From the NCBI GenBank assembly GCA_964017185.1, contig OZ024869.1, positions 64,246,931 through 64,310,930 on the forward strand: a stretch of DNA of 64,000 nucleotides, read 5' to 3'. Shown here in pieces: positions 422 to 33,235 of the stretch (positions are counted from its first letter, which is position 1; every line of letters begins with the position of its first letter). Below the pieces are notes generated by a model, which ran no database searches, was not told the DNA's origin, and was given only the letters and a program-made list of their open reading frames with translations. Origin of the DNA: Rugalucina vietnamica. Lineage: Eukaryota; Mollusca; Bivalvia; Lucinida; Lucinidae. The position numbers and the translations under genes are program-made.

Positions 422-692
422 GTAGGTTATATCCTTTTTAACATTTTTGCCATATTGCGAGTTTGATTGCTAAAAAAATACCAAACGTTAGAACCGCCAC
501 GGCGGTATGTTTTGGATTAAAAATAGGTGTCGGGGGGGGGGGGCGGATATTGCCTGTATGGGCTCCAGGGGCACAGTTAACATTGGCCCCTGTTTCTCTT
601 TGCACAGTTGGTGTTAAGAACGTAGAGTCATCGTGGCATTAACATGTTTACTGTAACTACATGTATACAGTAATTATTGAATCTCGTTGTAG
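422..692 (+). other. intron 1 of the PAN-EB gene
   Basis: The intron runs from a GTAGGT donor to a TAG acceptor. It carries a G12 homopolymer at 532-543, just after a short GCCACGGCGG stretch. I see nothing else in it. Confidence 0.7.
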
Positions 693-1121
693 AGTGTGCC
701 ACATATGGAACAACATTTAACGATCTCCAGGGTCACTATCTCAGCTATGCCAGTGACGATAAGATAGGAGGTGTTTCAGACCCTCTTCACTGCATGCACT
801 TGTGCATCGAGAAGACTAGCTATGTGTGTCGTGTAGCCGAACTTTATTATCCAAATTCCTACTGCCTGCTTTATTCTGAAGAGACGTTTATTACTAATGA
901 TCTGACATTAAAACCGAGTGTCAGCTATGATCACTACATGAGGGACTGTGCGGCGCCTCTTTCAACGACTTCCAAGACGTCTGCCTCACCGAGCTTCATT
1001 TTTATGTCGTGCACTGACAATACTGTCTGTGCAGAGATATCTGACGCCGAGTGTCGCGATGGAAAATGTCAGTGCATACCAGGATTGAGTCACAACCCAG
1101 TCTCAAATAGCTGCGTAAAAG
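693..1121 (+). CDS. PAN/apple + EB-like module exon (repeat 2)
   Basis: This exon encodes one complete module pair. It begins after a TAG acceptor; one base from the previous exon completes the Glu codon before CATYGTTF. The PAN/apple-like part has six cysteines (ECATYG, HCMHLC, VCRVAE, YCLLYS, MRDC). A short Ser/Thr linker follows, then the EB/EGF-like module (SCTDNTVC, AEC, KCQC, PGLSHNP, SC). The exon ends AAA-G before GTTGGT and is 429 nt, a multiple of three, so it is a symmetric phase 1-1 exon that can be duplicated or skipped without shifting the frame. An in-frame ATG at 677 is in the intron and is not a start. The linker is the shortest of the four. Confidence 0.8.
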
Positions 1122-1558
1122 GTTGGTTTTATGTCATGCTGTACCTTCAAATTGACTTTCCCAGCAAGATGTAAGCAAGAAATCAAATCAGAACTGATAA
1201 TATTCAAGCAAATTTCAAACGCAACACTTGCATTACTGATTGTTTCTCTCAGAATACACATGCAACATCACACGAAACGACAATGGAGTGATGTGATTAG
1301 AATCCAGATTTGTTTGGCAACAACTTACAGCAGTACCGATATGACAACAACGTATAGCGAGCCAATCAACTCTCCGCTGTAGGTTGTTGTCAAATCGATC
1401 CTGCCTCCAATCGCAACATTCTATTTTGTCATGTGTCGTGCGATGTTGCATCAATCGGCGCGGTAAGAATCACGGAGATGCAGGGTTGTCTATATATCAT
1501 GCAATGTTTATATACTAATATTATTTGTTATTGATAATATCTTTTGATTTTCCTTTAG
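1122..1558 (+). other. intron 2 of the PAN-EB gene
   Basis: The intron has a GTTGGT donor and a TTTCCTTTAG acceptor. Short open frames of 73-83 codons occur on both strands between 1131 and 1454. They have no recognisable motif and overlap each other, so I read them as chance. Nothing else is visible. Confidence 0.65.
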
Positions 1559-2038
1559 AGTGCATGACATATGGAACAACATTTCAAGAATTCCAGGACC
1601 ACTATCTCGACGTTTTCAGTCCCGATTGGGTAGAATATCTGCTAGACCCTGTTGTATGTATGGACGCGTGCATCGCTCAAACAAGTTCTGTATGTGTGGT
1701 CGCTGAAGTGTGGCATCCGTATGGAGAGTGCATGCTTTATTCACATGAACAGCTCAAAGCTATTAATCTCGCCTTTACTCCAAGTGAACGGTATGACCAC
1801 TACATGAGAGACTGTGCTGTTGAACCCTCCACGACCCCCTCACCTCTACCAACACCATCTACACCAACCTATACCACTTATCCACCACCCCAGACTTCTA
1901 CCTTACCGAGCTACATATCTATGTCGTGTATTGACGACACTGATTGTATAGGAAATTTTAACTTCAAATGTCGACATGAAATATGTCGTTGCTTACCAGG
2001 ACTAAGCTATGATCCGATCTCAAATGGCTGTGTCCAAG
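1559..2038 (+). CDS. PAN/apple + EB-like module exon (repeat 3)
   Basis: The exon is 480 nt and phase 1-1, with a TTTAG acceptor and a CAA-G/GTTGGT donor. The PAN/apple-like part starts ECMTYGTTFQEF and keeps the six cysteines, through VCVVAEVW, ECMLYS and MRDC. A longer Pro/Thr/Ser linker of about 40 residues follows; such linkers are commonly O-glycosylated. The EB/EGF-like module reads SCIDDTDC, KCRHEICRC, PGLSYDP, GC. It is the most diverged complete copy (VWHPYG replaces YYPNSY), so it is probably not one of the youngest duplicates. Confidence 0.8.
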
Positions 2039-2180
2039 GTTGGTTTAAGCCTCTTTATTTATACATCCGCGGAGGGTATCTAAGGTACCCAACAATACAT
2101 TTCAATTTGCATATTTTACTTTTGAAATGTTATTTTTACATTTACGGGTAGATACATATTAATTTTACTTTTTGCAAGTA

Positions 2181-3090
2181 CGAGGGTGGGTCAGGAAATT
2201 CTGCCATAGGTGTTATATTACAATAAATAGACACGATAGGTTTCTGAATTATACATTGTTAGAGAGGGCAACATTTCTGCTTTATGATGATACCAAACCC
2301 ATGCCCAAAAGTAATACATAGTTTAAATTATTCGTCTTGAAAGACAGGTGGGGTCAAACCACTGGCATGTTTTCTTGAAGTTGTTAACTTTGTATTGTGT
2401 CTTTCATGTGTTGTATATTTGTAACTACTGGCAATATTTTCTTCAAATTTTAAGTGATAAATTCTGATATATTTAGAAAAGCAATCCGGCAGAAATAAAC
2501 GTTACAAGTGCGCTACTGACTGGATAATGATTCGATAAAGATGACGTCATTGGAAGATGTACCCCTGTAACTGTTCAATACCACTGTGTCATTATAATTG
2601 CTGGCATTATTATGATTTCACTTCAGAGCAGACTAAGATGATACAGTTAAATGGTTAAATGCATTTAAAGCTTCGAAGTTTATGCTAAGATGTCATTTTT
2701 CTTTGAATTTAAACTGCAGTTTTAAAAACATGCCAGGACAGGCCGATTTCAACATTTCATTGTGTTATAAAACAATTAAATTAAGTTGAAGAAGTTTGAG
2801 TTTTGCAGGATATAATCACTCATATTTGACGAATATATAGCACTTATGACTTTTTTTTCGAAATCATTTTACTGTATATTTTTGCATTGTTTTCTTTAAA
2901 CCATGCCAGTATCAGGGAGTCACTTCTTTAAAAGTGATTTTTTACATTTCATTCATGAAGAGCCACAAACAATTTTTATCGCAGGTAATAGCTAGAAAAC
3001 TGGTCTTCCAGATGTTGCTATTTTAAAATATTTTGCAATGACAGATACCGAGAAATATATGGAGTGACAGAACATTTTGACCGATCCTCG
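2181..3090. mobile_element. diverged 910-bp TA-flanked TIR element (mariner-like, non-autonomous)
   Basis: The left end reads CGAGGGTGGGTCAGGAAATT just after TA. The right end, read in reverse complement, is CGAGGATCGGTCAAAATGTT next to TA. The first ~230 bp and several interior landmarks (a TGACGTCAT next to ACCCCT, and TTTTGCAGGATATA) match the element at 51905-52813, in opposite orientation. Total length agrees within a base (910 against 909). TA target duplications and a CGAGGGTG start fit the Tc1/mariner superfamily. No transposase frame is present. The right arm has decayed beyond its first ~25 bp, so the copy is old. Confidence 0.65.
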
Positions 3091-3362
3091 TAGATTCAAA
3101 TTTTTGTTAAATGAAAACAATAAACACTATGTAGTATACAAAATATAGTTGTTGGTGGTTCAAGCCATTCGCTTAAAAATAGAACACACTACGATTTTAT
3201 TCTATACCAGTAAGAAAAAAATGAGGTGGAAATCCTGTCTTTTACATCCCTTTCCAAAGCCAGGAATATTACATAAATTCTTCAGTCTGTCAATGTACAA
3301 CTTTCCGGCAACGTGATTTCGTCGCGTGTCAGTGCCGTTAATTTCTTTAGAGGACAATAAAA

Positions 3363-3812
3363 TTAGTAAAATCCCAGCTCAAATCCATTTGCAACAGAAA
3401 TATGTAGATCTAAAAAGGGGGCTTCGGTATCCGAGATATTGGCTTTGTTCAACTGTAGTTCAGATGGATAAATTTGATTGACCATACCTTCAAAATAAGG
3501 GTTGTCAATGTTCAAAAGGTCATCGAGGTACCTAGAAGTGGAATTAAAAGCCTCAATAACATCAGCTTGATTATCATGGTTAAGAGAATCCATGAAATCT
3601 CTTTCGTAGCAGTATAAAAATAAATCAGCTACGAGAGGTGCGCAATTTGTACCCATCGGAATTCCAACAATTTGTCTGTATAACTTGGTCCCAAATCTAA
3701 TATAAATATTATCTAAGAGATAGGATAAGGCGTCGCACAAATTCTGACATGACCAAAGTGTATACCGACTTTGGTCAGAGGAAGTGACCAAAACCGGCTG
3801 CCGTAATAACAA
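3363..3812 (-). mobile_element. reverse-transcriptase fragment, probably Penelope-like
   Basis: The minus strand encodes about 149 residues of a reverse-transcriptase core. It includes a GIPMGTNCAPLVADLFLY stretch (finger/palm, about residues 50-68), a RYLDDLLNID catalytic motif (about 94-103) and an APFLDLHISV segment. The GIPMGT and YLDD combination resembles reverse transcriptases of Penelope-like elements known from bivalves and corals; that family assignment is from memory and moderate. The fragment lacks the rest of the polymerase and any endonuclease, and no element ends are visible. It lies antisense in an intron of the PAN-EB gene and is a dead fragment. Confidence 0.7.
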
Positions 3813-3940
3813 ATAAAATATAAAAATAGATCCTGTGAAAGCAGTGAAAATATTTAAAGGGAGTAGTGTGAATCATAATGGGCAATGTTGGGTAATCAAC
3901 CCTCATCAGTGACCCATATAAAATTTTGTTTTTGCTTCAG

Positions 3941-4441
3941 AGTGTGCGACATATGGAACAACATTTCAAGAACTTCAGGACAACTATCTCAGCTTTAACA
4001 GTGACGATATGATAGGAGGTATTACAGATCCAGTTGAATGTATGAATCTGTGCATCGCGGAAAGCAGTTATTTATGTCGTGTAGCTGAACTTTACTATCC
4101 CAACTCCTACTGCTTACTGTATTCTGAAGAGACATTTAATGCCTATATGTATGATCTCACATTTAATCCGAGTGTAAGCTACGACCACTATACGAGAGAC
4201 TGCGCGGTTGATCATCCCCCGACCACCTCACCGTCAACTTCTCCACCACTAATGTCACCAAACACACCACCTTCTACCACTTATCCCCCAATTGAGATGT
4301 CTACTCCACTGAGCTACATTTTCAGTGCTTGTATGGACAACACCGACTGTGAGGGAATATCTGACGCTGAGTGTCGTTATGAGATATGTCAGTGTATCCC
4401 AGGATTGAGTCATGACCCGGTCTCAAATAGCTGCGTTCAAG
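3941..4441 (+). CDS. PAN/apple + EB-like module exon (repeat 4)
   Basis: The exon is 501 nt and phase 1-1, from a GCTTCAG acceptor to a CAA-G/GTCGGT donor. The true beginning is the acceptor; an in-frame ATG at 4009 is internal to the PAN domain. The PAN/apple-like part has ECATYGTTFQEL, ECMNLC, LCRVAELYYPNSYC and TRDC. A ~40-residue Pro/Thr/Ser linker is followed by an EB/EGF-like module (ACMDNTDC, AECRYEICQC, PGLSHDP, SC). It is closest to repeats 2 and 5, sharing the VAELYYPNSYC block with repeat 2, which suggests fairly recent exon duplication. Confidence 0.8.
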
Positions 4442-4700
4442 GTCGGTTTCATTTTTATATTGAGTATACAACTTCAGCAATCAAACAAAATTTATCGCAT
4501 TTTGTTTCTTTGCCAGGATAACCGATACAAAAATACCAGATTATACGATAGATGAGAAATACACAAAACATGTAAGTTGATGATGTTCTAAATTCTAGAT
4601 ATTAATAATGCTTGTGGTTCCGATTGTTTTACGATTTTTTCTGAGCTAGACCTTGAATTGTTTTAACATATGATACATTAAAAGTCTGTGTTTTCTTCAG
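4442..4700 (+). other. intron 4 of the PAN-EB gene
   Basis: The intron has a GTCGGT donor and a TTTTCTTCAG acceptor. I see no other feature in it. Confidence 0.65.
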
Positions 4701-19955: not shown

Positions 19956-20046
19956 GCTTTTATTTTTACTGTATTTGCTTGCAAAAATATGGACATGCTT
20001 GAATATCATGGATATCAATACAAAAAATCAAAAACATACATATTTC

Positions 20047-21490
20047 ACTCTTTCTAGGTAGGTAGGGGTCACATTCTCACTGACACTTTCACTCTTTATA
20101 TGTTGTAGGCATCACATTCTCACAGACACTTTCACTCTTTATAGGTTGTAGGCGTCACATTCTCACAGACACTTTCACTCTTTATAGGTTGTAGGCGTCA
20201 CATTCTCACAGACACTTTCACTCTTTATAGGTTGTAGGCGTCACATTCTCACAGACACTTTCACTCTTTATAGGTTGTAGGCGTCACATTCTCACAGAAA
20301 CTTTCACTCTTTATAGGTTGTAGGCGTCACATTCTCACAGACACTTTCACTCTTTATAGGTTGTAGGCGTCACATTCTCACAGAAACTTTCACTCTTTAA
20401 AGGTTGTAGGCGTCACATTCTCAAGACTCTTTCAGTCTTAAAATGTTGGTTGGCGCCACACTCTCACAGACTCTTTCACTCTTTAAAGATAGGCAGGCGT
20501 CACATTCTCACAAACACTTTCATTCTTTAAAGGTAGGTAGGCGTCGCATTCTCACAGACACTTTCACTCTTTATAGGTTGTAGGCGTCACATTCTCACAG
20601 AAACTTTCACTCTTTAAAGGTTGTAGGCATCACATTCTCACAGACACTTTCACTCTTTATAGGTTGTAGGCGTCACATTCTCACAGACACTTTCACTCTT
20701 TAAAGGTTGTAGGCGTCACATTCCCAAGACTCTTTCAGTCTTAAAATGTTGGTTGGCGCCACACTCTCACAGACTCTTTCACTCTTTAAAGATAGGCAGG
20801 CGTCACATTCTCACAAACACTTTCATTCTTTAAAGGTAGGTAGGCGTCGCATTCTCAGACACTTTCACTCTGTAAAGGTAGGCAGGCATCACATTCTCAT
20901 AGACACTTTCACTCTTTAAATGTTGGTAGGTGTCACATTCTCACAGATTCTTTTAATCTTTATAGGTAGGTAGGCGTCACATTCTCACATGCACTTTCAC
21001 TCTTTAAATGTTGGTAGGCGTCACATTCTCACAGACTCTTTTAGTCTTTATAGGTAGGTAGGCGTCACATTCTCACATACACTTTCACTCTTTAAATGTT
21101 GGTAGGCATCACATTCTCACAGACTCTTTCACTCTTTAAATCTTGGTAGGCGTCACATTCTCACAGATTCTTTTACTCTTTATAGGTAGGTAGGCATCAC
21201 ATTCTCACAGACACTTTCACTCTTTAAAGGTTGGTAGACATCACATCCTCATAGACTCTTTCACTCTTTAAATGTTGGTAGGCGTCACATTCTCACAAAC
21301 TCTTTTACTCTTTATAGGTAGGTAGGCGTCACATTCTCACATACACTTTCACTCTTTAAAGATTGATAGGCCTCAAATTCTCACAGACTTTTTCACTTTT
21401 CAAAGGTTGGTAGGCGTCACATCCTCACAGACTCTTTCACTCTTTAAAGGCTGGTAGGCGTCACATTCTCACAAACACTCACTCTTTTAA
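20047..21490 (+). repeat. 43-bp tandem array, about 33 units
   Basis: The unit contains GGCGTCACATTCTCACAGAC, then ACTTTCACTCTTTA and AGGTTGTA or AGGTAGGTA, with period 43. Two variants of the linker (GTTGTAG and GTAGGTAG) alternate in places. A block of about 155 bp holding several odd units (CTCAAGACTC, GGTTGGCGCCACAC) occurs at ~20396 and again ~304 bp later, so there is higher-order structure. The array ends ~180 bp past the 3' end of the Helitron gene. It is not CRISPR: repeats are contiguous, with no unique spacers. Confidence 0.9.
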
Positions 21491-21671
21491 GGTGGGAGAA
21501 TGTGACACTTTATAGGCTGTCCGCCTTTGCCAGCCCTGTCGCAAACATTTAAGTATATTCCACATTTGGTAACAGGCTCTTAGAAAAAGACTTTGCATAG
21601 CTATACGGGCAGTCCACACAAGCATATGCTCATCTGTCTAACAAAGTAGTGTCTCCTGCACTTATAGCAGT

Positions 21672-24161
21672 CTATAATGTTTCAATAACTTGGGCATGGA
21701 CAAAATAATGATCTGAGTAATATGTTGGGAGCACAGATACGTTGCCAGAACAACATTCTGGAAGATAAATATGATCCAAGCATGATCCCATTCTGTGTGT
21801 GGGCTGTTTAATTATTTGTTGGAAGCCAAATTTGTCCATAAGTCTACTAAAAGGAGAACTGCTTCGTTTCAACCAGTCAAAATTAAAATCTCCCAAAAGA
21901 ATGATCTTTTCCTTTCTTCTTTCTGTAAGCCAAGTTACAATGGTTTCTACATTTGCAGCAAACTCTCTCTGGGGAACAGATGGTGACCTGTAGAGTAAGA
22001 CAACGGTGTGACATTCCTGTCCAAACTGTATGATGACAGATAATACTTCTATAGCCGTGGTTACTGGCACCTCAAGTAAAGTAGCCTTTAAATGATCTGA
22101 GACATACAATGCAATACCATGGTGATTTTCAGCCATATCTGGCTGCTTCATAAACAATCTGTAATTATCAATCTGATGATTCTGTTTATTGTTGTTGGTA
22201 ATGTGTGTCTCCGTGAAGGCAAGAATATCACTGGCCAAGAGGACTGGGTCTGTGGTTATGTCCTTGAAGTGGAGTTTGGCTGAATTTGCATTTAACAATG
22301 CTATTCTAGTACTGGGACATGTAAGCGGTGAAGTCAATTCATGATAGGGTGATGGAAGACGCATTTCTGTAAGAAGCCTTTTCATTTCTTTTTTTACATT
22401 TGTACTTGCTCTTATATTTTCTGGATTGAAGTCTAACAACTGGAGACCTTTAAGAGTTCTCGATCTACTCAAAGCAACATAAGCTTGACCTGGCAAGAAA
22501 CTATGTTTGAAACATACAACTATTTCATCATGAGTAGAACCCTGAACCTTATGAATAGAAGAGCCATGTCCTAGTGTCATTGGAAACTGCAGCCATGTTA
22601 TTTCAAGTCCCTGTTTCTGTCCAGTAGAAAATTTCACCTCCATTCGAGTTATTGGAACAGCATTAGCAGGGAAAGCTGACAAATCAAATCTTGATTCTGC
22701 AATTGCTCTTGAGCCCACATTTGCTTTGTCAAACTGAACTACAACTGCTTTCACTTCTTCTCCACTAGTAGCATTTTGTGGAATGAAGCCCAGGACAGTC
22801 CCTTGTGCTCCATTTACTAGGCCATCTTGTACATCAATATTTCTGACTAACATCACCCTGCACCCTTCACAAATTAGTATTTCCTTTTCTAAACCTCCTG
22901 TATCTTTGGACTTATCTGACACTGTGTAATCTTTCAAGCAAGAAGGTCGCTTTTCTTTTCTTTTTAAGGAAAGAATTGGTTTGTTCAGCTCACCCATTTT
23001 CAAACTATTGTGTGCATTCTTATCAACATTGAGCTTGAATATGTGAAGAACATCTGACTTGTAGACGGGATCAGTTTTGTCTATTTCACAGGTGCGTAAA
23101 AGATCTATGTCTGCTTCTGTGTGCTCAGCTTTTCGAACTCTGTTGAGTAATTCTGCAAATTCAGCATCTTCCTTCTGACGCATAATTTGTGTGAGTTCTA
23201 CTGCTTTGAAGTTGCGTACCCAAATTGAGCCAAACAGACGTTCAAATTTATCAGCTGGTAATTCATATACAGGACTTTGTCCAACTGGTGGCAGCTGATA
23301 CAAGTCTCCAAATGCCAAGACTGTCAGTCCCCCAAAAGGTTTTGACACACCTGTAATTTGTTGTAGTCGTTTGCTGATATGCAAGATCATACTGTTTCCA
23401 ACCATGGAGATTTCATCAATGATGACCATTTGTAAAGACTTCAGTTTAGCTCTCAGTGTGTTACATTTATCATCTGAAAGTTTGATGTAAGTTTTTGTGT
23501 TATTCCTCGGCATAAGTAGTGCAGAGTGTATTGTTGGTGCACCAATGTTGAAGGCTGCTGGGCCAGTGGGAGCCATAAGCAATGCATGGGTTTCACTAGG
23601 GCTCTCACCAGCTTTTCTGAAAACAAAATTAGCCATGTTATGAACAGCTTTAATGAGATGGGACTTGCCCGTCCCTGCACCACCAGTCACAAATATGCAT
23701 TCAGGATCTGTATTCAAGGAGTCATTTTTCTTGTTTTCACACCAGTTAAGCAAATATTGGAATACATTTCTTTGCTCAGCATTTAATGACTGGACAAGTT
23801 GTCTATACTCCAAGTCTGATAAAAGATCTGGAATCAGCTCAACAGCTAAAGCTGGAGCACTTGTCCTCATGGTATCACTTGTGAATCTTAAGTTCTCATT
23901 GGCATCTGGATTGATGACAGCAAAGCCTTCATCTTCTTCAGCACCTTCTTCAAATGCATCTGCTTCTTCATGCTGGGTTTCTGGTGCTACTTGATCCCAG
24001 GCATGTGTTGGCGGACCATGTTCTTGGAAGTTTTCAACTGCTTCATCAACCATCTCTGCATTGCTCATGAGCCTGTTTTCATTGTTTTCAACCAAGTCTT
24101 TTTTTACTGTCAAAATGCTCAGAATGTGACTCATGGCCATCTTGCAAATCAGCTTTTTCAT
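21672..24161 (-). CDS. Helitron helicase-endonuclease part (Pif1 helicase + EEP domain)
   Basis: This frame supplies DNA unwinding and a putative nuclease for rolling-circle transposition. Helicase (superfamily 1B, Pif1/RecD-like): Walker A GGAGTGKS at 160-167, TGPAAFNIGAPTIHS at 199-213, Walker B VIIDEIS at 246-252, GDLYQLPPV at 285-293, HKVQGST at 537-543 and YVALSRSR at 561-568. C-terminus (about 618-829), exonuclease-endonuclease-phosphatase fold: LLNANS with N625, E651, GDFN with D758 and N760, LDHIY with D796, and SDH with D817 and H818; all key residues are present. The Met at 24161 overlaps the Rep frame by 74 nt and is unlikely to be a true start. Family members are continuous Rep-Hel proteins, and the real join is near the A7 run at 24099-24105. 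Confidence 0.9.
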   Translation of the reverse strand: MKKLICKMAMSHILSILTVKKDLVENNENRLMSNAEMVDEAVENFQEHGPPTHAWDQVAPETQHEEADAFEEGAEEDEGFAVINPDANENLRFTSDTMRTSAPALAVELIPDLLSDLEYRQLVQSLNAEQRNVFQYLLNWCENKKNDSLNTDPECIFVTGGAGTGKSHLIKAVHNMANFVFRKAGESPSETHALLMAPTGPAAFNIGAPTIHSALLMPRNNTKTYIKLSDDKCNTLRAKLKSLQMVIIDEISMVGNSMILHISKRLQQITGVSKPFGGLTVLAFGDLYQLPPVGQSPVYELPADKFERLFGSIWVRNFKAVELTQIMRQKEDAEFAELLNRVRKAEHTEADIDLLRTCEIDKTDPVYKSDVLHIFKLNVDKNAHNSLKMGELNKPILSLKRKEKRPSCLKDYTVSDKSKDTGGLEKEILICEGCRVMLVRNIDVQDGLVNGAQGTVLGFIPQNATSGEEVKAVVVQFDKANVGSRAIAESRFDLSAFPANAVPITRMEVKFSTGQKQGLEITWLQFPMTLGHGSSIHKVQGSTHDEIVVCFKHSFLPGQAYVALSRSRTLKGLQLLDFNPENIRASTNVKKEMKRLLTEMRLPSPYHELTSPLTCPSTRIALLNANSAKLHFKDITTDPVLLASDILAFTETHITNNNKQNHQIDNYRLFMKQPDMAENHHGIALYVSDHLKATLLEVPVTTAIEVLSVIIQFGQECHTVVLLYRSPSVPQREFAANVETIVTWLTERRKEKIILLGDFNFDWLKRSSSPFSRLMDKFGFQQIIKQPTHRMGSCLDHIYLPECCSGNVSVLPTYYSDHYFVHAQVIETL

Positions 24162-27100
24162 TTTTCCAGGGCAAGTACAACAGCAACTTGTTGTAAAAGT
24201 ACATTTCGGGTTCTTTTGTCATTGAGCACTGGTGAAAGCGAATGACATTAGGTTTTGTCTTTCTCTTCATTCTGCCTAGATTGTTTGACAGAACACTGAC
24301 ATGGGAAGACTTTTCTGCTTCTGTGTCAGTACTCAATGCTGGATATATATCTGAAGCATCATCATTCACTTTACAGGTTGTAACCTCATACCACATAGAA
24401 AACTCAGCTAGACACATTTCATTCAATACAGCAGGTCTTGCAGCATATCTTTCCAGCAGATTAGGTAGAAATATATCCGGCTCATCATCTTCCATTGATG
24501 CTAGTTGTGTCTGTGATTTTAGTATACGTACTCTTCTCTCAGGATAACCTGTAGGAATCCACACAGTCTTAAAGTTTGACTGATACAGGGGAAGTCCAAG
24601 GAGTCTGTAGACAGCTTCCTGAGCACTAACCGCTCTTGAATTAGCAAATGCATCGGCAACTTTACTCATTTGTTTGCTAATGGCCAAATTACTCATTTCT
24701 TTTGAAACGGCTTGTAGGACCAAGCCCATCTCTCTTTCGTCTTTTGTTACATAGCTTGTGATGTAGTGTATTGCTGCATAGGGACTAACAACATATTGTA
24801 GGTCCATATTGGCTTGCCATCCTGTCAAGAGGTGAGCATTGTAGTTGTTGATGTTGATTTCAGATGGTTTCCTTTTAAGATGAAGAGTAGCATCTTTAGC
24901 AGCAAACAGTAGAGCAAAGTTGTACTCATCTGGGGATAGTTCTGCCTCAGTTAAGATATCAAAGAGGCTGACATCTTTCAGGTTTTCATGGTTTTCCATA
25001 CATTCTTTCATTCTGTTCAAAATTTCATGGGCTTGCTTGCGTAGAATACCCTTCTGTTCAGAGTCAATATCTTTCGTTTGTTCAGGGCGTGCCAGTATTG
25101 TTTCCTCAGAAGGTGGTCGAGGAAAGTTAAACCTGCATGAGTTGCCTCTCTTTTTACATGACGCTGAACAGGAATGCCTCTGAAGTTCTGTGACAAGGTT
25201 CTTTAGATTGTCATCTTCAACAGGTATAGTTGCTGACACATATTCATCAACAAACTCACAGATCTTTTTTGTGTCTGAATCTGGTTGTGGTGCTTCTTCT
25301 ACCCATAAGATGGCATGGGCATGAGGTGAGCCCCTCTGTTGAAACTCTATTCGATAGAAGTAGTTAGTAATTTTCCCAAGAGGGGCTGCATCTGATAAAA
25401 TGACATCTGTGAAGAGGGACTGTAATTTGTGATGAAAATGTCTAGCAGCTGTCACAGGGTTTGAACGTAGCAGTTCACACTTCTCCTCCCAAGTCATGCC
25501 TCTGATTTGTTCTTCAGATAACATTCTGCCTTGTTGTCTTGCTATGCCCTGCAATGTGTCTGTCCATCTAAGATCTGCCGCTGATAGTGTCATGAACCAT
25601 GTGAATATCTTCAATTGTTTTATTGCAGAAAGTAACTTAAACATGACTTGCTGCCAGTATGGTGGACTACCTCTAATTGGTCTTAAGAACCGATAAGCTT
25701 CGTCCTTCATAAGCAATGGTCTAATCCTGTCTGGATTCTTAAAGGCTGCTGCAGTAAATTCTTCTCCACCTTCGTTTGCACCAAATGATTTCCTCAGAGC
25801 CACTGATATTGAATTACGTATCTGCTGCCACTCAGAAAGGAACTGTCCAACGAACAAATACTCTGTATTTGATGCAAACTTGCCACCATGCTCTAGTATT
25901 CTGCGCTGGAAGTATTTTTTGGCTGAAATTGATACAGGTCTTTCATATGTCAAACCAAACTTTCCTGATGGAAACAGAGTAGGGAAGGCCAGTTCTTCAA
26001 ATTTTTCATCATTTAGCATATTTATTGGCCTTTTTCCTTCCCCAGGAGCTATAGACATTACTCTATTTGTGACATCAATAGATGGATCATCTGGCTGAAT
26101 ACATGAATCTAACTTTATGCCCCGCAGTCTGGAACCTGTTTCTTCTTCAACAGTTTCATCATCAGAGTCATCATCCAATGGAGCCTCAGTTGTATTGTCA
26201 CCTGTATTTTCTGCTTCTTTGTTGACTGTGATGTCTGTTGTTAATTCAGCCCAAGTGTCTTGATCCTCCTCTGCACTCCTCTGCTCCCATTCTTCTCTTC
26301 CTTCAATGTCTGAATATAGGACATTATTTGCTTTCAACCACCGAAATGCTTCTTTTACTCTGTTTGGTCTAATATATTGAAAATTAACGTGACCAGAGTA
26401 CTGAACTTTACGTTTTAGCTTTAATGGCAAAAACCCAGCTTCTGAAGGTGTTCTTGGCAAGGCTTCACAAACCTGTCCTGCTTGTACTGGAACATTAACT
26501 ACAGCGCCTTTGATTCCTCTTTGTCGTCCCTTTGGAAGAGCCAGTAATTTCATGAATGGATACCTCTGTGATAGAAGTCTTTCTTCCAAAGAACTTAAAC
26601 TATTCAATTCTGGTGGACTGTCAGGTAATGCTAGATTGTTGGAATTTGATTGAGGTGGAAGCTTATTGTTCATTATATGACTCTGACAAGTTTTGCACAA
26701 CCATTCTTTGTTTTTTGCTGATAGTTTGCCAGACAGGCACATCTGACGTAATGGTTCAGCAACATTCTTAAATAGAATTTCCTTTGCTTCAATTACAGAC
26801 TTTCTATACAGCATCCTGTTGCAACAAGTACATACATATTCAGCAAACTCTGTAATGTGTGTCTTAAAATTATGTAATGCCTCTTCTATAGACTTCACTT
26901 TTCTGCGGAGTCGTGTTTGCTCTCTGTCTTTTTCTTTCACCTCTTCTCGCTGACTTTCAGATAAACCTTCCCTTTGCAGTCTTTTTTGGTCTCTGTCTTT
27001 AGCTTTCACCTCTTCTCTCTGACATTCGGATAAACCCTCTCTTTGCTGTCTCATTTGTTCTCTATTTTTAGCTTTCACCTCTTCTCTCTGACTTTCATAT

Positions 27101-28770
27101 AAACTTTCTCTCTTCTGTCTCATTTGTTCTCTAGTTTTAGCTTTTTCCTCTTCTTGCTGACCTTCAGATAAACTCTTTCTACGCTGTCTCATTCTGTCTC
27201 TGTCTTTAGCTTTAACTTCTTCTCGCTGTTCAGCATTTAACTGTTGTCTATATTGTCTCATTAGGTCCCGACACTTAACATTTCCTTGTTCTTTTTGTTG
27301 AGGATTCCTAAACTTCCTTTGTTTAGATTTAACATCTTTGTTACTGACTTTTAATTTCAAATCTGATTCAGTTTCTTCAAGCCTTTTTTTATTTTCTTCC
27401 ATTAATTTGCTGTAACTCTTCTGATAATCAGCTTGTGACTGAAAATAATTTTGCAGCCGTTGCATTTCATCAGGAACTGTCGGAAACATACTGAAAGTAC
27501 CCTGTTTTAGACTTTTTAGTAGATGTTGTCTGATACCTGACATTAAAAATCCTGTTTGTCGCAATGGAATTTGTTTCAGCAGTAAAGCTACAGTAAAAGC
27601 AATAGCAAAAATGCCACATGATTCTGAGTCTAATTGGTGTTGTGGAATACAGTAATTAATTGGGGTCTCAGGATTTTCTGCCAAACCTTTGTATACAATC
27701 TTTAATTGAGGCAAAACTTGTTCAATTCTTTCATGGGCATATACACTGTCATATATGGTGATAGTTTTCATAAACTGGTAAGACAAGATGTAATGACATG
27801 GCACAAAGTGCATTTGAACTGCAGTACATGCTGAAGGTATACGGTCAGCTTCAGGAACTTGCTGTCCCATAAGGATATGTGCATAAATATATGAAGGACG
27901 CAAAAGCCCATGTGTCACATTAAACTGTTTTTTTAGTAACATTGATGACAAATCTAGGACTTCTATTGGAAGTTCACCATAAAGGACATTGTTTGACAGT
28001 TTATCTTCATGACACACCGTGAAAAGGCCAGGATCTGCGGCCAGACAGGAGTGATAATTACTTTCAGTACTTTTTGAAACAATCGGTTCACTGGTAAACT
28101 GGCTTGTATACACATATTCTGTATTGTCTTGCAATATTTCTGGACTTGTGACTGGTTCTGAATCCGTAACACTATTATTATCTGATCTGTTCCAACTGGT
28201 AACAGGGACAGGCTGTGTTTGTGTCTGGTTTTGTGAAATGTCCAACCTACTGACTGTTTCAGAATCAGAAATAGTATCATTGGATTTATAGTGTCTAGTA
28301 ACTTGTACAGGTTCTCCAGTTGTAGTCGATGATCTGTCCCATTTTCTGAATGGATCTGTTTGAGTAATACCACTATTTGATTTGGTATCAGGGACAGATG
28401 CTGTTCTGATATTATTTTGTGTTTCTTCCTGTGCAATGACTGGGGCCGAATCGACAACAGAATAGCCATGTGCCGTGTCTAACTCCATAACAAGGACAGA
28501 GTCTGTTATTTGCTTATTTTGTGATCTGTACTTTCGTCTTGTAGCAACTGAATCATTTGCAGTCTCTTCAGTGTTTTGGGGTGAAGTCATTGGGATAAAA
28601 CACCGTTTCTGTTGTATATTTGTACTATTTGCGGCAGCTTCTGCTGTTGGTACAGGTTTATCATCTTGAACAATGACATTCAGAGGTGTCCCATCCTCAA
28701 TTCGTCGTCGTTTCATCCGCTCCTTGTTTTCTTCCTGTCTCTGTCTTTTCGATTTACCTTTAGTCTTCAT
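24088..28770 (-). CDS. Helitron Rep part with N-terminal Ulp1-like protease domain
   Basis: 1560 residues, on the ATG shortly after a predicted 3' splice site. The N-terminus is basic, then Ser/Thr-rich and disordered (to about 240). Residues 270-430 look like a C48/Ulp1-type cysteine protease: H326, D341 (YDS), Q379 and C385 (SCGIFAIAF); the Gln-Cys spacing of six and the other spacings are close to yeast Ulp1 as I recall it. Residues 505-625 are about five charged repeats of ~25 residues (REEVKAKDR), probably coiled coil. Residues 647-760 have CTCC and CKTC pairs and a PFMKLLALPKG/VVNVP region like DUF6570. A Helitron_like_N region starts at 945. The HUH motif is PHAHAILW (H1150, H1152), with candidate catalytic Tyr at 1336 and 1340 (HYITSYVTK). 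It nicks and joins DNA ends. The frame ends in the wrong phase, at an A7 run. Confidence 0.88.
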   Translation of the reverse strand: MKTKGKSKRQRQEENKERMKRRRIEDGTPLNVIVQDDKPVPTAEAAANSTNIQQKRCFIPMTSPQNTEETANDSVATRRKYRSQNKQITDSVLVMELDTAHGYSVVDSAPVIAQEETQNNIRTASVPDTKSNSGITQTDPFRKWDRSSTTTGEPVQVTRHYKSNDTISDSETVSRLDISQNQTQTQPVPVTSWNRSDNNSVTDSEPVTSPEILQDNTEYVYTSQFTSEPIVSKSTESNYHSCLAADPGLFTVCHEDKLSNNVLYGELPIEVLDLSSMLLKKQFNVTHGLLRPSYIYAHILMGQQVPEADRIPSACTAVQMHFVPCHYILSYQFMKTITIYDSVYAHERIEQVLPQLKIVYKGLAENPETPINYCIPQHQLDSESCGIFAIAFTVALLLKQIPLRQTGFLMSGIRQHLLKSLKQGTFSMFPTVPDEMQRLQNYFQSQADYQKSYSKLMEENKKRLEETESDLKLKVSNKDVKSKQRKFRNPQQKEQGNVKCRDLMRQYRQQLNAEQREEVKAKDRDRMRQRRKSLSEGQQEEEKAKTREQMRQKRESLYESQREEVKAKNREQMRQQREGLSECQREEVKAKDRDQKRLQREGLSESQREEVKEKDREQTRLRRKVKSIEEALHNFKTHITEFAEYVCTCCNRMLYRKSVIEAKEILFKNVAEPLRQMCLSGKLSAKNKEWLCKTCQSHIMNNKLPPQSNSNNLALPDSPPELNSLSSLEERLLSQRYPFMKLLALPKGRQRGIKGAVVNVPVQAGQVCEALPRTPSEAGFLPLKLKRKVQYSGHVNFQYIRPNRVKEAFRWLKANNVLYSDIEGREEWEQRSAEEDQDTWAELTTDITVNKEAENTGDNTTEAPLDDDSDDETVEEETGSRLRGIKLDSCIQPDDPSIDVTNRVMSIAPGEGKRPINMLNDEKFEELAFPTLFPSGKFGLTYERPVSISAKKYFQRRILEHGGKFASNTEYLFVGQFLSEWQQIRNSISVALRKSFGANEGGEEFTAAAFKNPDRIRPLLMKDEAYRFLRPIRGSPPYWQQVMFKLLSAIKQLKIFTWFMTLSAADLRWTDTLQGIARQQGRMLSEEQIRGMTWEEKCELLRSNPVTAARHFHHKLQSLFTDVILSDAAPLGKITNYFYRIEFQQRGSPHAHAILWVEEAPQPDSDTKKICEFVDEYVSATIPVEDDNLKNLVTELQRHSCSASCKKRGNSCRFNFPRPPSEETILARPEQTKDIDSEQKGILRKQAHEILNRMKECMENHENLKDVSLFDILTEAELSPDEYNFALLFAAKDATLHLKRKPSEININNYNAHLLTGWQANMDLQYVVSPYAAIHYITSYVTKDEREMGLVLQAVSKEMSNLAISKQMSKVADAFANSRAVSAQEAVYRLLGLPLYQSNFKTVWIPTGYPERRVRILKSQTQLASMEDDEPDIFLPNLLERYAARPAVLNEMCLAEFSMWYEVTTCKVNDDASDIYPALSTDTEAEKSSHVSVLSNNLGRMKRKTKPNVIRFHQCSMTKEPEMYFYNKLLLYLPWKNEKADLQDGHESHSEHFDSKKRLG
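24099..24105 (-). other. A7 homopolymer where the Rep and helicase frames part
   Basis: In the sense strand the Rep frame reads AGT AAA AAA AGA, leading to a stop five codons on. The helicase frame reads AAA AAA GAC through the same run. One A fewer would make Rep-Hel continuous, giving about 2,365 residues. This could be a mutation, a homopolymer sequencing error, or translational slippage of +1 (or -2). The usual -1 slippery pattern does not fit the direction needed. Confidence 0.8.
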
Positions 28771-29121
28771 TGTTCACCTGAAACGATAGAAATACTATTT
28801 AAAATATTTGTTAAATTATCTACTGAGCCAAGTAATGCAGATGACTATACCTTTCATGAAATCTCTAGGTAGAGTTCAGACTAGTAAAATTTCTGGACTG
28901 AAGCTTAACCTAGTTTAAAAGGTACACCTCTCCACTAGTTGGCTTTTCCCAATAAATGCATACTTACCTTTCCGAACACATATTTCTAAATTAAAAACAT
29001 TCCATGGTCCATGCACAATAAATCTTCATTTAGCGTGTGTGATGAAAACGCCAAGAAGATGCTCTGAACACTGCCACAACTTTAACATTTAGTGGATGGC
29101 AAAGTTGTTTTTTCTGCTTTT
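28727..29121 (-). repeat. leader duplication, proximal copy
   Basis: A unit of about 395 bp covers the first ~15 codons of Rep, the predicted leader intron and its upstream exon. It is repeated in tandem at 29122-29445. Shared landmarks include CAAGTAATGCAG, TTTCATGAAATCTCTA and GGTACACCTCTCCA. Confidence 0.65.
28778..28967 (-). other. predicted leader intron of the Helitron gene (proximal copy)
   Basis: In the sense strand a strong donor AAAG/GTAAGTATG at 28967 and an acceptor TCGTTTCAG/GTGAACA at 28778 bracket 190 nt, ending seven bases before the ATG of the Rep frame. Both sites match consensus well. The same pair recurs in the upstream duplicate at 29174-29355. Confidence 0.5.
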
Positions 29122-29445
29122 GGACTCTTCCTGCCTCAGCCTTTTCGAATGCCCTTTATTCTTCATTGATCACCTGAAATGATAACAACTGATTAAAACT
29201 TGTTATACTATTGACTGTGCCAAGTAATGCAGCTGTATAACTTTTCATGAAATCTCTAAGTATAGTTCAGACCAATAAAATTTCTAGTCTGAATCTAAAC
29301 CTAGTTTAAAAAGGTACACCTCTCCATTAGTTGGCATTTCCCAAAAAATGCTTACCTTTACTGCTCAGCACATATTTGTAAACTAAGAACATTCCATTTT
29401 CCATATGCTATAAGTCTTCATTAAGTTCATGTCATAAAAAGCAGA
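29122..29445 (-). repeat. leader duplication, distal copy with a decayed Rep start
   Basis: It repeats 28727-29121, including a second ATG followed by MKNKGHSKRLRQEES, clearly related to the MKTKGKSKRQRQEEN of the real start. Its own donor (TAAAG/GTAAGCA at 29355) and acceptor (CATTTCAG/GTGATCA at 29174) are kept. The distal reading frame does not connect to Rep. The copies differ by scattered changes, so the duplication is not new. Confidence 0.6.
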
Positions 29446-29764: not shown

Positions 29765-31195
29765 TGCAAAAAAGGTATCAAAGGTTGACCAGGTTATGTT
29801 CTCATCAGCCTCAATCAGTATACTAAATAGGAAGCATGTAGCTTAAATACTTTTTTAAGATTTGTTGCACTGTGTTGCACAAAAATGTTGCACACAAGAT
29901 TTTCAAATTATTTTTTCAAGGGGCATAATTCAGAAAAATGCACAAATTGGGTATGAATAAATGAACTATTTGTTCATGAGGAATGTGCATACGAAATTTC
30001 AAAACCCTAGTATTCACCGTTCAAAATTCTCTGGAAAGTAGAAAAATCAATCACAATCTCAAAATTCTGTCAAAATTTGACAAAAAGTTCTCAAAAGTCA
30101 AAATTTGACAAAAAGTTCTCAAAAGTTAGTCAGGTAATTTTATCATGCGGAATGAGCATATGCAATTTCAAAACACTAGTAGTCATCTTTCAAAAGTGTA
30201 AAAAATCTAAAAAAAAAAAGGAAAATCAATCAAAATTCTGTAAATCTGTGTAAACTTGACAAAATGTTATCAAACGTTAATCAGGTGATCTGCTCATCAT
30301 CCACAGTGAGTATACTAAATTTGAAGGCTCTAGCTTATACACGTTTTGAGATATCTTGCACACAAGGTTTTCAAAAAAAAATCAAAGGGGGATAATCCAG
30401 AAAAGGGCAATAACCGAGACAAGAAAAAAATATGGCTCAACTATTTTTTCATGAGGAATGTGCATATGCAATTTCAAAACCCTACCATTTTAACTGTTAA
30501 AAAGTTTAAAAGTGGAAAATCAATCAAAATTTCAAAATTCTGTTATTCCGTCAAAATTTGACAAAAAGTTCTCAAAAGTTAATCAGGTGATCTACTCATC
30601 ATCCTCAATGAGTATACCAAATTTGAAGGCTCTAGCTTATACACTTTTTGAGATATCTAGCACACAAGGTTTTCAAAAATAAAATCCAAAGGGGGATAAT
30701 CCAGAAAAGGGCAATAACCGAGACAAGAAAAAAAATACGGGTCAACTATTTTTTCATGAGGAATGTGTATATGGAATTTCAAAACCCTAGCATTAACTGT
30801 TAAAAAGTTTAAAATTCTCCAAAAAGTGGAAAATTAATAAAAAATTCAAAATTCTGTAATTTTGTCAAAATTTGACAAAAAGTTCTCAAAAGTTGATCAG
30901 GTGATGTACTCATCATCCTCAATGAGTATACCAAATTTGAAGGCTCTAGCTTATACACTTTTTGAGATATCTTGCACACAAGGTTTTCAAATTTTAAATT
31001 CAAAGGGGGATAATCCAGAAAAGGGCCATAACTGAGACAAGAAAAAAAATATGGGTCAACTATTTTTTCATGAGGAATGTGCATATGAAATTTTAAAACC
31101 CTACCATTCACCGTTCCAAAGTTAACGGACACACACACAGACAGACAAGCCAAAAGCAATATGCCCTTCCAACTTTTTCAAAGTTGGGGGCATAA
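29765..31195 (+). repeat. tandem array of ~302-314-bp units with a terminal hairpin
   Basis: The anchor GAGTATACYAAATTTGAAGG occurs at 30308, 30610 and 30924 (spacings 302 and 314), with a more diverged unit from about 29810. Each unit has GAGATATCTTGCACACAAGG, GGGGGATAATCCAGAAAAGG, CATGAGGAATGTGCATATG and GTCAAAATTTGACAAAAAG. The array ends with ACACACACAGACAGACAAGCC and a CCAACTTTTTCAAAGTTGG hairpin before GGGGCATAAT, an ending I recognise from bivalve repeats. Frames inside (for example 30809-31159 minus) are shadows of the repeat. Confidence 0.75.
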
Positions 31196-31324: not shown

Positions 31325-31810
31325 ATGGGGACCCCGCCAGTTTGCTCCGTGAGAAGTAGATGGACTGCGTGTGGTTCTAAGCAAAGCTTCTAAACTACTG
31401 ATCCAGGAAAAGTGGTTCAAGTAAAATCATCCATACATATATGAGCCGCCGCACGGGAAACCAACAATCTGCATAGGCGAAAACAAAGGCGCAGATCAGC
31501 TTCGCAGTAATTGCGAAGCTGATCAGCGCCTTTGTTTTCGCTACAAAGATTGTACAATTCCTCTTCTTTCTAAATCCAAAGTTTCCAGCCTCTAACCACC
31601 TTCTGTGACTGTACAGCCCGGTTTATGTCGGACTTGGTCGGAATTCCAAATTGTTGGTTTTCACACACACACACAGGCTCAATGCTTTGTTTACTTTGAT
31701 GGGTATATTTTAAAGCACGTTTTGGGTGTCATGACATTCTAATGCTGGTTACAAGTTCTATAAAATGGAGGCAACGTCCCGACGTAAAGCATCAGCATAC
31801 ACAAGCAAAC
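31325..31810 (-). repeat. dispersed repeat with 65-bp hairpin core, copy 2
   Basis: The core at 31479-31547 is the best palindrome of the three: GGCGAAAACAAAGGCGCAGA paired with its reverse complement around GCAGTAATTGC. The flanks are in reverse order relative to copy 1: GAATTCC and TCCGACATAAACC sequences to the right, and the GGAGGCAACGTCCCGACGT body at 31768-31786. A GCAAAGCTT-containing piece precedes the core. Confidence 0.65.
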
Positions 31811-32294: not shown

Positions 32295-33235
32295 CTTTAT
32301 TTAAAGAGGAGGCTCAGTTGAACAAGTCCAATCTTTTCTGAGGTCCTCTATCAAAACAACATACATGTATACATATAAAATATACAACATAGAAAATTAA
32401 CATAAACAAATACAAAAATAGAGTTCTGTTCCTAAATTAAAGAATGTTCTTGTGTGGCTGCCCAGTTAAGATATCATTTCCTAAATTGTTGAAGGTAGAC
32501 TGCATTTCTGAGATGGTTTGAAATGGAGTTCCATATTTTTGATCCTGAGTACGCAAGGCTGTTCCTATAATGTTCAATATTTGGTTTAGGGATGTATAAA
32601 AGATTGTCTGCTGTAGACCTAAGGGTTCTGTCATGGACCTCTTTTGAAAACATTTCTGGTACATAACTCTCTCTGGGAAGGTCATCCATTTCAATTCCGC
32701 AAAGTGTTCCTCTGATGGAGTTACTATTGGCTTATCTAGAACTGACCTTGCTTTCCGTTTCTGGAATTTGATAATGGAGCTCATAAGCTCAGTATTGGCA
32801 TTACCCCAGACTGAACAACAGTAGTCGAGATGAGGGAGTATGTATGCATTGTAGAAGAGCTTTCTAGTTGGAATGTTTAGGTACTTTTTAATCCTATTCA
32901 AGAGAAAAAGCAATGAATTGCATTTTTTTAATGTTGACTCAATATGAGTTGACCAACTTAGGGAGTTGTTTATATGAACACCGAGCAGTTTCTCAGACTC
33001 TGATATTTGAATTTGTTCTCCCTTAATAGTGAGATGAGGTGGTTCTGCCATTAATTTGTTGGTTGGTTTCGAGTTGCTAAGAACATGACCTTTGATTTGG
33101 ATGTGTTCTTTTTTCATGTCATTGTCATCATACCAATCAGAAAAGTTGTCTAGGTCTAGATTTAGGAAATTTGTTACTGTGGGCAGATCAAGGTGCCATC
33201 ATCTGCAAATAGATCTTACAGACAATATTTGATGT
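32236..33235 (-). mobile_element. 5'-truncated LINE (non-LTR retrotransposon) with (ATT)n tail
   Basis: The minus strand encodes the end of a LINE polyprotein. A FADDGTL motif near 33205 is the catalytic box of the reverse transcriptase. The frame at 32437-33117 has the C-terminal region LLGVHINNSLSWSTHI, FYNAYILPHLDYC, SVWG and FQKRKARSVLDK. About residue 155 (~32655) homology moves to another frame at 32474-32689, with TADNLLYIPKPN, SLAYSGSKIWNSI and QQFRK, so a small indel interrupts it. There is also a break between FADD and the Met at 33117. The element ends AATAAAGTC followed by (ATT)19 at 32236-32292, a microsatellite tail typical of several LINE clades. I place it in the Jockey/CR1-like group with moderate confidence. 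Confidence 0.8.

Follow-up and report, generated by a model that had tools for sequence, protein, structure and literature searches.

Why should the transposase of a rolling-circle element begin with a protease of the Ulp1/SENP kind, and what would such a domain do there? The question is raised by a Helentron of the lucinid bivalve Rugalucina vietnamica, located in a 64,000-nucleotide stretch of contig OZ024869.1 (positions 64,246,931 to 64,310,930; hereafter the window). Its first open reading frame (ORF 1; 24088..28770, minus strand, 1,560 aa) encodes a basic N-terminus, a C48-like protease, charged repeats, a zinc-finger/DUF6570 region and an HUH Rep, an order that a first-pass annotation of the sequence had described correctly. 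Helentrons are defined by a Rep, a helicase and a C-terminal endonuclease (PMC4067079). An HUH Rep, a PIF1-type helicase and a C-terminal endonuclease are found together in the window, across two frames, and thus identify the element as a Helentron. We consider it probable that the CE-clan protease of the Ulp1/SENP kind with which this RepHel starts works at the transposase complex by removing a ubiquitin-like modifier.

An Ulp1/SENP-like protease domain

Residues 254–430 of ORF 1 (27481..28011, minus strand) are confirmed as a CE-clan cysteine protease of the Ulp1/SENP (C48) kind by conservation, a structure model, fold matches and the pattern of selection. The residues that the first-pass annotation had picked out as the catalytic set, H326, D341, Q379 and C385 (codons 27793–27795, 27748–27750, 27634–27636 and 27616–27618, minus strand), follow the C48 order His-Asp-Gln-Cys, with the glutamine six residues ahead of the cysteine; the catalytic spacing of SENP1 and Ulp1 was inspected for comparison. 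The host genome, the one genome from which all relatives, counts and trees given here are drawn, contains 30 places that match the domain, the window included. All four residues are invariant in the 15 rows of alignment A3, which combines P0002 with 14 of the 29 other loci and omits close copies, fragments (L136, L143) and L124. A pattern check over all 30 loci found the catalytic motif at 28. Conservation in sister copies, which had been proposed as a check, therefore fails only at L124, where stops interrupt the domain and the glutamine is missing by eye, and at L143, where the match is merely 32 aa long. In L114–L122, the pattern begins at a neighbouring histidine five residues before H326, which is itself visible in the sequence.

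The lone window sequence scores 15.3–16.3 bits against PF02902, below the curated cut-off of 20.7, and the domain is therefore named C48-like; a relative, L150, scores 23.7 bits, and 8 of the 15 A3 members match at E≤0.01. None of the 14 PF02902 matches listed genome-wide overlaps the 30 places, so these domains can escape standard profile scoring, and C48 Helentrons may have been overlooked elsewhere. A two-row profile of Ulp1 and SENP1 pairs the window histidine, aspartate and cysteine with those of Ulp1, in a match whose score is reached by 1 of 200 shuffles (hhalign probability 4%). A four-row profile performs better: no shuffle out of 300 reaches the score and the probability is 10%, with the alignment limited to the Gln-Cys part. 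When viral contigs were scanned with P0001, P0002, the Rep part and alignment A2, no relative turned up. The CG-x-FA motif, searched as DNA patterns, yielded 6, 77 and 22 stretches, which were rejected; the translations inspected, one set of them restricted to ORFs >40 aa, resembled chance ORFs by eye.

An AlphaFold2 model built with alignment A3 has a predicted local distance difference test score (pLDDT) of 86; a single-sequence model of residues 254–457 (pLDDT 33.7) was discarded, and nothing was read from it. The best PDB matches of the A3 model are structures of SENP, Ulp1 and NEDP1, with SENP5-SUMO complexes at Foldseek ranks 1–3 and a NEDP1 match as good as that of SENP5, and the predicted fold is that of C48. 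These cellular enzymes (SENP5, NEDP1 or SENP8, and yeast Ulp1) share 12–15% identity with the window domain and lack a transposase fusion. The C48 match anticipated in the first-pass annotation is thus borne out by the fold matches, but not at the curated PF02902 cut-off. In the viral library BFVD, the best fold match of the protease is Q6R2R7, a 410-aa unnamed protein (E 4.3e-10, TMq 0.70).

It is extremely improbable that the domain is really a VTD or OTU protease, even though these are the classes published for Helentrons (PMC9741609, PMC4067079). In VTDs the cysteine comes first and an Asp-x-His last (PMC9741609), whereas the window domain has the order His-Asp-Gln-Cys. Neither Herpes_teg_N nor OTU (PF02338) matches the window domain in Pfam at E≤10, although the same library does detect Herpes_teg_N in L151; the missing OTU match is weak evidence. 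The fold matches seen are C48. VTD and OTU chains are absent among the 50 matches listed by VIA-align, which is no evidence of a differing fold.

Selection on the protease and the N-terminal slot

Between the window and L144, the ratio of nonsynonymous to synonymous substitution rates (dN/dS) is 0.59 in the N-terminus, 0.12 in the protease, 0.38 in the charged repeats, 0.12 in the zinc-finger/DUF6570 region, 0.10 in the Rep, 0.08 in residues 1341–1540, 0.07 in the helicase and 0.20 in the endonuclease. The protease is constrained like the transposase, and clearly more than either neighbour (0.38–0.59). Pairwise values for the protease range from 0.11 to 0.51 (15 of 17 pairs defined; locus rows include up to 20 flanking residues), the top values coming from low-divergence pairs. 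Gene capture by transposons is known, and L124, with its internal stops and failing motif, would suit a captured domain that has lost its activity and is kept merely as a piece of a large ORF. Given a dN/dS far below that of the flanks and active-site residues that are invariant across 15 rows, we regard such a passenger as very improbable.

Six sisters share 93–97% identity with the window. Five have open frames of 2,422–2,545 aa, and the sixth (L120; 1,545 aa) is close in length to ORF 1. Single long open frames were read in L144 (2,545 aa), L145 (2,378 aa) and L146 (2,377 aa), while that of L147 (about 2,527–2,582 aa) runs to the locus end. All four contain DUF6570, Helitron_like_N, PIF1 and endonuclease matches in one frame, L147 being cut at the locus end, and all four have the protease Gln-Cys motif close to the N-terminus. 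Recent movement of the family would explain the near-identity of L115 and L116, which lie on different contigs (4 differences in 3,609 bases), and of L118 and L119 (7 in 3,609).

The host genome also contains at least 150 scored matches each to Herpes_teg_N (the VTD family) and Helitron_like_N. The best 150 of 409 Rep candidates were joined with the C48 places and the best 150 of 297 VTD candidates by contig, strand and a distance of up to 7 kb upstream; the Reps were not individually checked for the endonuclease. A VTD lies upstream of at least 73 of these 150 Reps, C48 upstream of 11, both upstream of none and neither upstream of at most 66; with a 4 kb limit, the counts are 72, 9, 0 and 69. 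The figure of 73 is a lower bound and that of 66 an upper bound because the best 150 only were joined; L151, for example, was counted as having neither and yet holds a VTD (E 4.7e-6). Among the matches listed, every C48 place is farther than 10 kb from any VTD. The order in L151 is basic N-terminus, VTD, charged repeats, cysteine pair, DUF6570 and Rep; judged from its sequence, this is the architecture of the window with another protease, the VTD occupying the identical slot N-terminal to the Rep. Since C48 is located where related elements hold a VTD, the slot seems to be occupied by one deconjugating protease or another, of a class that can change.

In a 23-row Rep tree, which omits L167 (long branch) and L159 and L172 (short), C48 carriers do not form one clade (approximately unbiased test, p 2e-8). 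Five of them join the VTD clade, apart from the clade of the window, and C48 needs two changes; long branches meeting at the window's clade were flagged. A 26-row tree needs four changes, of which starred branches force at least two. L159 and L172 are nearly identical to each other, though labelled VTD and none, respectively. In the protease-domain tree, the window clusters with 11 other rows (93/89, below star level), and a Rep is linked to all eight of these 12 that were examined (window, L117, L120, L122, L126, L127, L130 and L133). L134, L137 and L141 fall outside this cluster. Two of them, read further as L149 (5807–7501) and L150 (5691–7112), contain ORFs with C48 and PHD domains (Pfam) and, by eye, a SWIM-like Cys/His stretch; no Rep was noticed in the printed frames. 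These ORFs recall transposons with Ulp1 and PHD domains (PMC2836005) and are a possible source of the protease module. As the trees are unrooted, C48 may have been present in these Helentrons from early on, with VTD replacing it in the high-copy family, or may have been gained repeatedly.

Other large ORFs were seen in the same genome. L106–L111 carry a C48 domain above the Pfam cut-off in two near-copy families (frames of at most 2,211 aa), with a USP-like stretch ahead of C48 by eye and no Rep seen in the stretches fetched; these are perhaps multicopy mobile elements. L152 (G000:C12:18221356) has a Rep-bearing ORF of 3,542 aa with a very long charged-repeat N-terminus and, within the part fetched, no Pfam protease match at E≤0.01.

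Possible roles of the protease

A deconjugating protease tethered to RepHel works where RepHel works. HUH Reps link covalently to DNA through a tyrosine, and SUMO and ubiquitin pathways clear protein-DNA crosslinks. The protease would be catalytically active, would remove ubiquitin or a ubiquitin-like modifier, and would act in cis, its targets being RepHel itself or proteins present where transposition takes place. Its most likely use would be to keep RepHel, including the covalent tyrosine-DNA intermediate, untagged for removal. A literature search, judged from its listing, found nothing that ties SUMO- or ubiquitin-dependent crosslink clearance to HUH proteins. The zebrafish Helitron VTDs that were tested cleave ubiquitin chains of the K48 and K63 types, and two of the three also act on NEDD8, while SUMO is left uncut (PMC9741609). 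If C48 took over the job of VTD, ubiquitin or NEDD8 would, by analogy, be a likelier substrate than SUMO. The first-pass annotation had suggested interference with host SUMO or ubiquitin control, or self-processing; a deconjugase-kind domain joined to a transposase supports this in part, but the zebrafish enzymes would shift the emphasis from SUMO to ubiquitin or NEDD8.

A role in anti-silencing, in which the protease would deSUMOylate the host's silencing factors at the Helentron and so enable its transcription, is possible but rather doubtful. The SUMO ligase Su(var)2-10 works in piRNA-guided silencing in Drosophila (PMC7272611), and plant Vandal elements with an Ulp1 domain in their VANC gene (KIU) cause hypomethylation of related elements, whatever the share of the Ulp1 part itself (PMC13317346). 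The top-ranking SENP5-SUMO complexes would also fit, but NEDP1 matches the fold equally well. The fusion to RepHel suggests action at a protein-DNA complex, and the zebrafish VTDs tested did not react with a SUMO probe (PMC9741609), which counts against this role if C48 and VTD share a job.

Cleavage of a long RepHel polyprotein into working pieces is unlikely. One-frame products of 2,377–2,545 aa in L144–L146 and a long charged linker between domains would suit it, and processing into Rep, helicase and endonuclease was suggested earlier for OTU-like proteases (PMC4067079). However, the linker is weakly constrained (dN/dS 0.38), and the zebrafish VTDs tested are deubiquitinases (PMC9741609).

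A third protease class in the slot, never together with VTD in the scored cases and under Rep-like selection, argues for a shared need and not accidental capture. We raise, tentatively, a broader hypothesis: the N-terminal slot of Helentrons would be reserved for a modifier-removing protease whose classes (VTD, C48 and perhaps OTU) swap, with deconjugation at the covalent Rep-DNA complex, that is, self-protection from ubiquitin- or SUMO-directed repair, as the selected function. Elements with the same transposase architecture and differing proteases provide a natural comparison set for finding the common substrate.

OTU and VTD proteases in Helentrons are already published, and C48 is apparently an additional class: no report of it in a Helitron or Helentron was found in the literature searched, whose coverage excludes Repbase reports and most subscription journals. 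Zebrafish DrT1 and DrT2 share with the window element a RepHel, an AP-type endonuclease and a cysteine protease domain, which is a VTD (PMC9741609). OTU Helentrons are likewise rolling-circle elements encoding a protease, described as an additional ORF (PMC4067079), whereas the window protease is fused in ORF 1. Ulp1/C48 domains occur on the DNA transposons Ginger1 and Mutator-type elements, one also with PHD (PMC2836005), and KIU/Vandal (PMC13317346). These are cut-and-paste transposons without the HUH Rep of the window element, and the Ulp1 of Ginger1 is C-terminal to the transposase, unlike the window protease, which is N-terminal to the Rep. The excerpt of PMC2836005 names OTU, not Ulp1, for Helitrons.

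Organization of the element and its surroundings

All features of the element lie on the minus strand. Downstream of the protease, highly charged 23-aa repeats (26857..27270, residues 501–638; 69-bp units) comprise five units and a degenerate sixth. DUF6570 (PF20209, Pfam; 26290..26670, residues 701–827) directly follows two CxxC pairs. The Helitron_like_N or Rep domain (PF14214, Pfam; 25306..25914, residues 953–1155) contains HAHAIL at 1150, which we take to be the HUH-type pair, and YITSYVTK (24742..24765, residues 1336–1343) is presumably the Rep tyrosine motif. ORF 2 (21672..24218 from stop to stop, first ATG 24161) encodes the PIF1 helicase and a C-terminal Exo_endo_phos endonuclease (Pfam), and overlaps ORF 1 out of frame. 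A run of A occurs in the region where the two RepHel halves of this copy change frame; the split may be a mutation, an assembly error or a programmed shift.

The 5' leader (28730..29440) is duplicated (28730–29048 and 29126–29440). It has GTAAG sites that resemble splice donors and, ahead of the ATG, a TTTCAG that by eye looks like an acceptor, which suggests a possible 5' untranslated intron. A 44-bp minisatellite of 33 copies (20043..21493) downstream of the endonuclease perhaps lies inside the Helentron. A search of this single copy for Helentron termini (subterminal inverted repeats, 3' palindrome, TT insertion) gave no convincing pair. Upstream of the element, a near-perfect 65-nt hairpin (31477–31541; 30-nt arms, 97%), with short inverted repeats also present, could be a small fold-back element or a Helentron terminus.

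About three ~300-bp units stand in tandem at 29968–31150, upstream of the Helentron ORF. An ORF at 32437–33198 (minus strand), followed by an ATT microsatellite, resembles by eye the end of a non-LTR (long terminal repeat) reverse transcriptase, with no Pfam match at E≤0.1. Three ORFs that resemble one another (674–4521, plus strand) give weak EB-module matches, the first alone also PAN_1, and are probably exons of a host gene.
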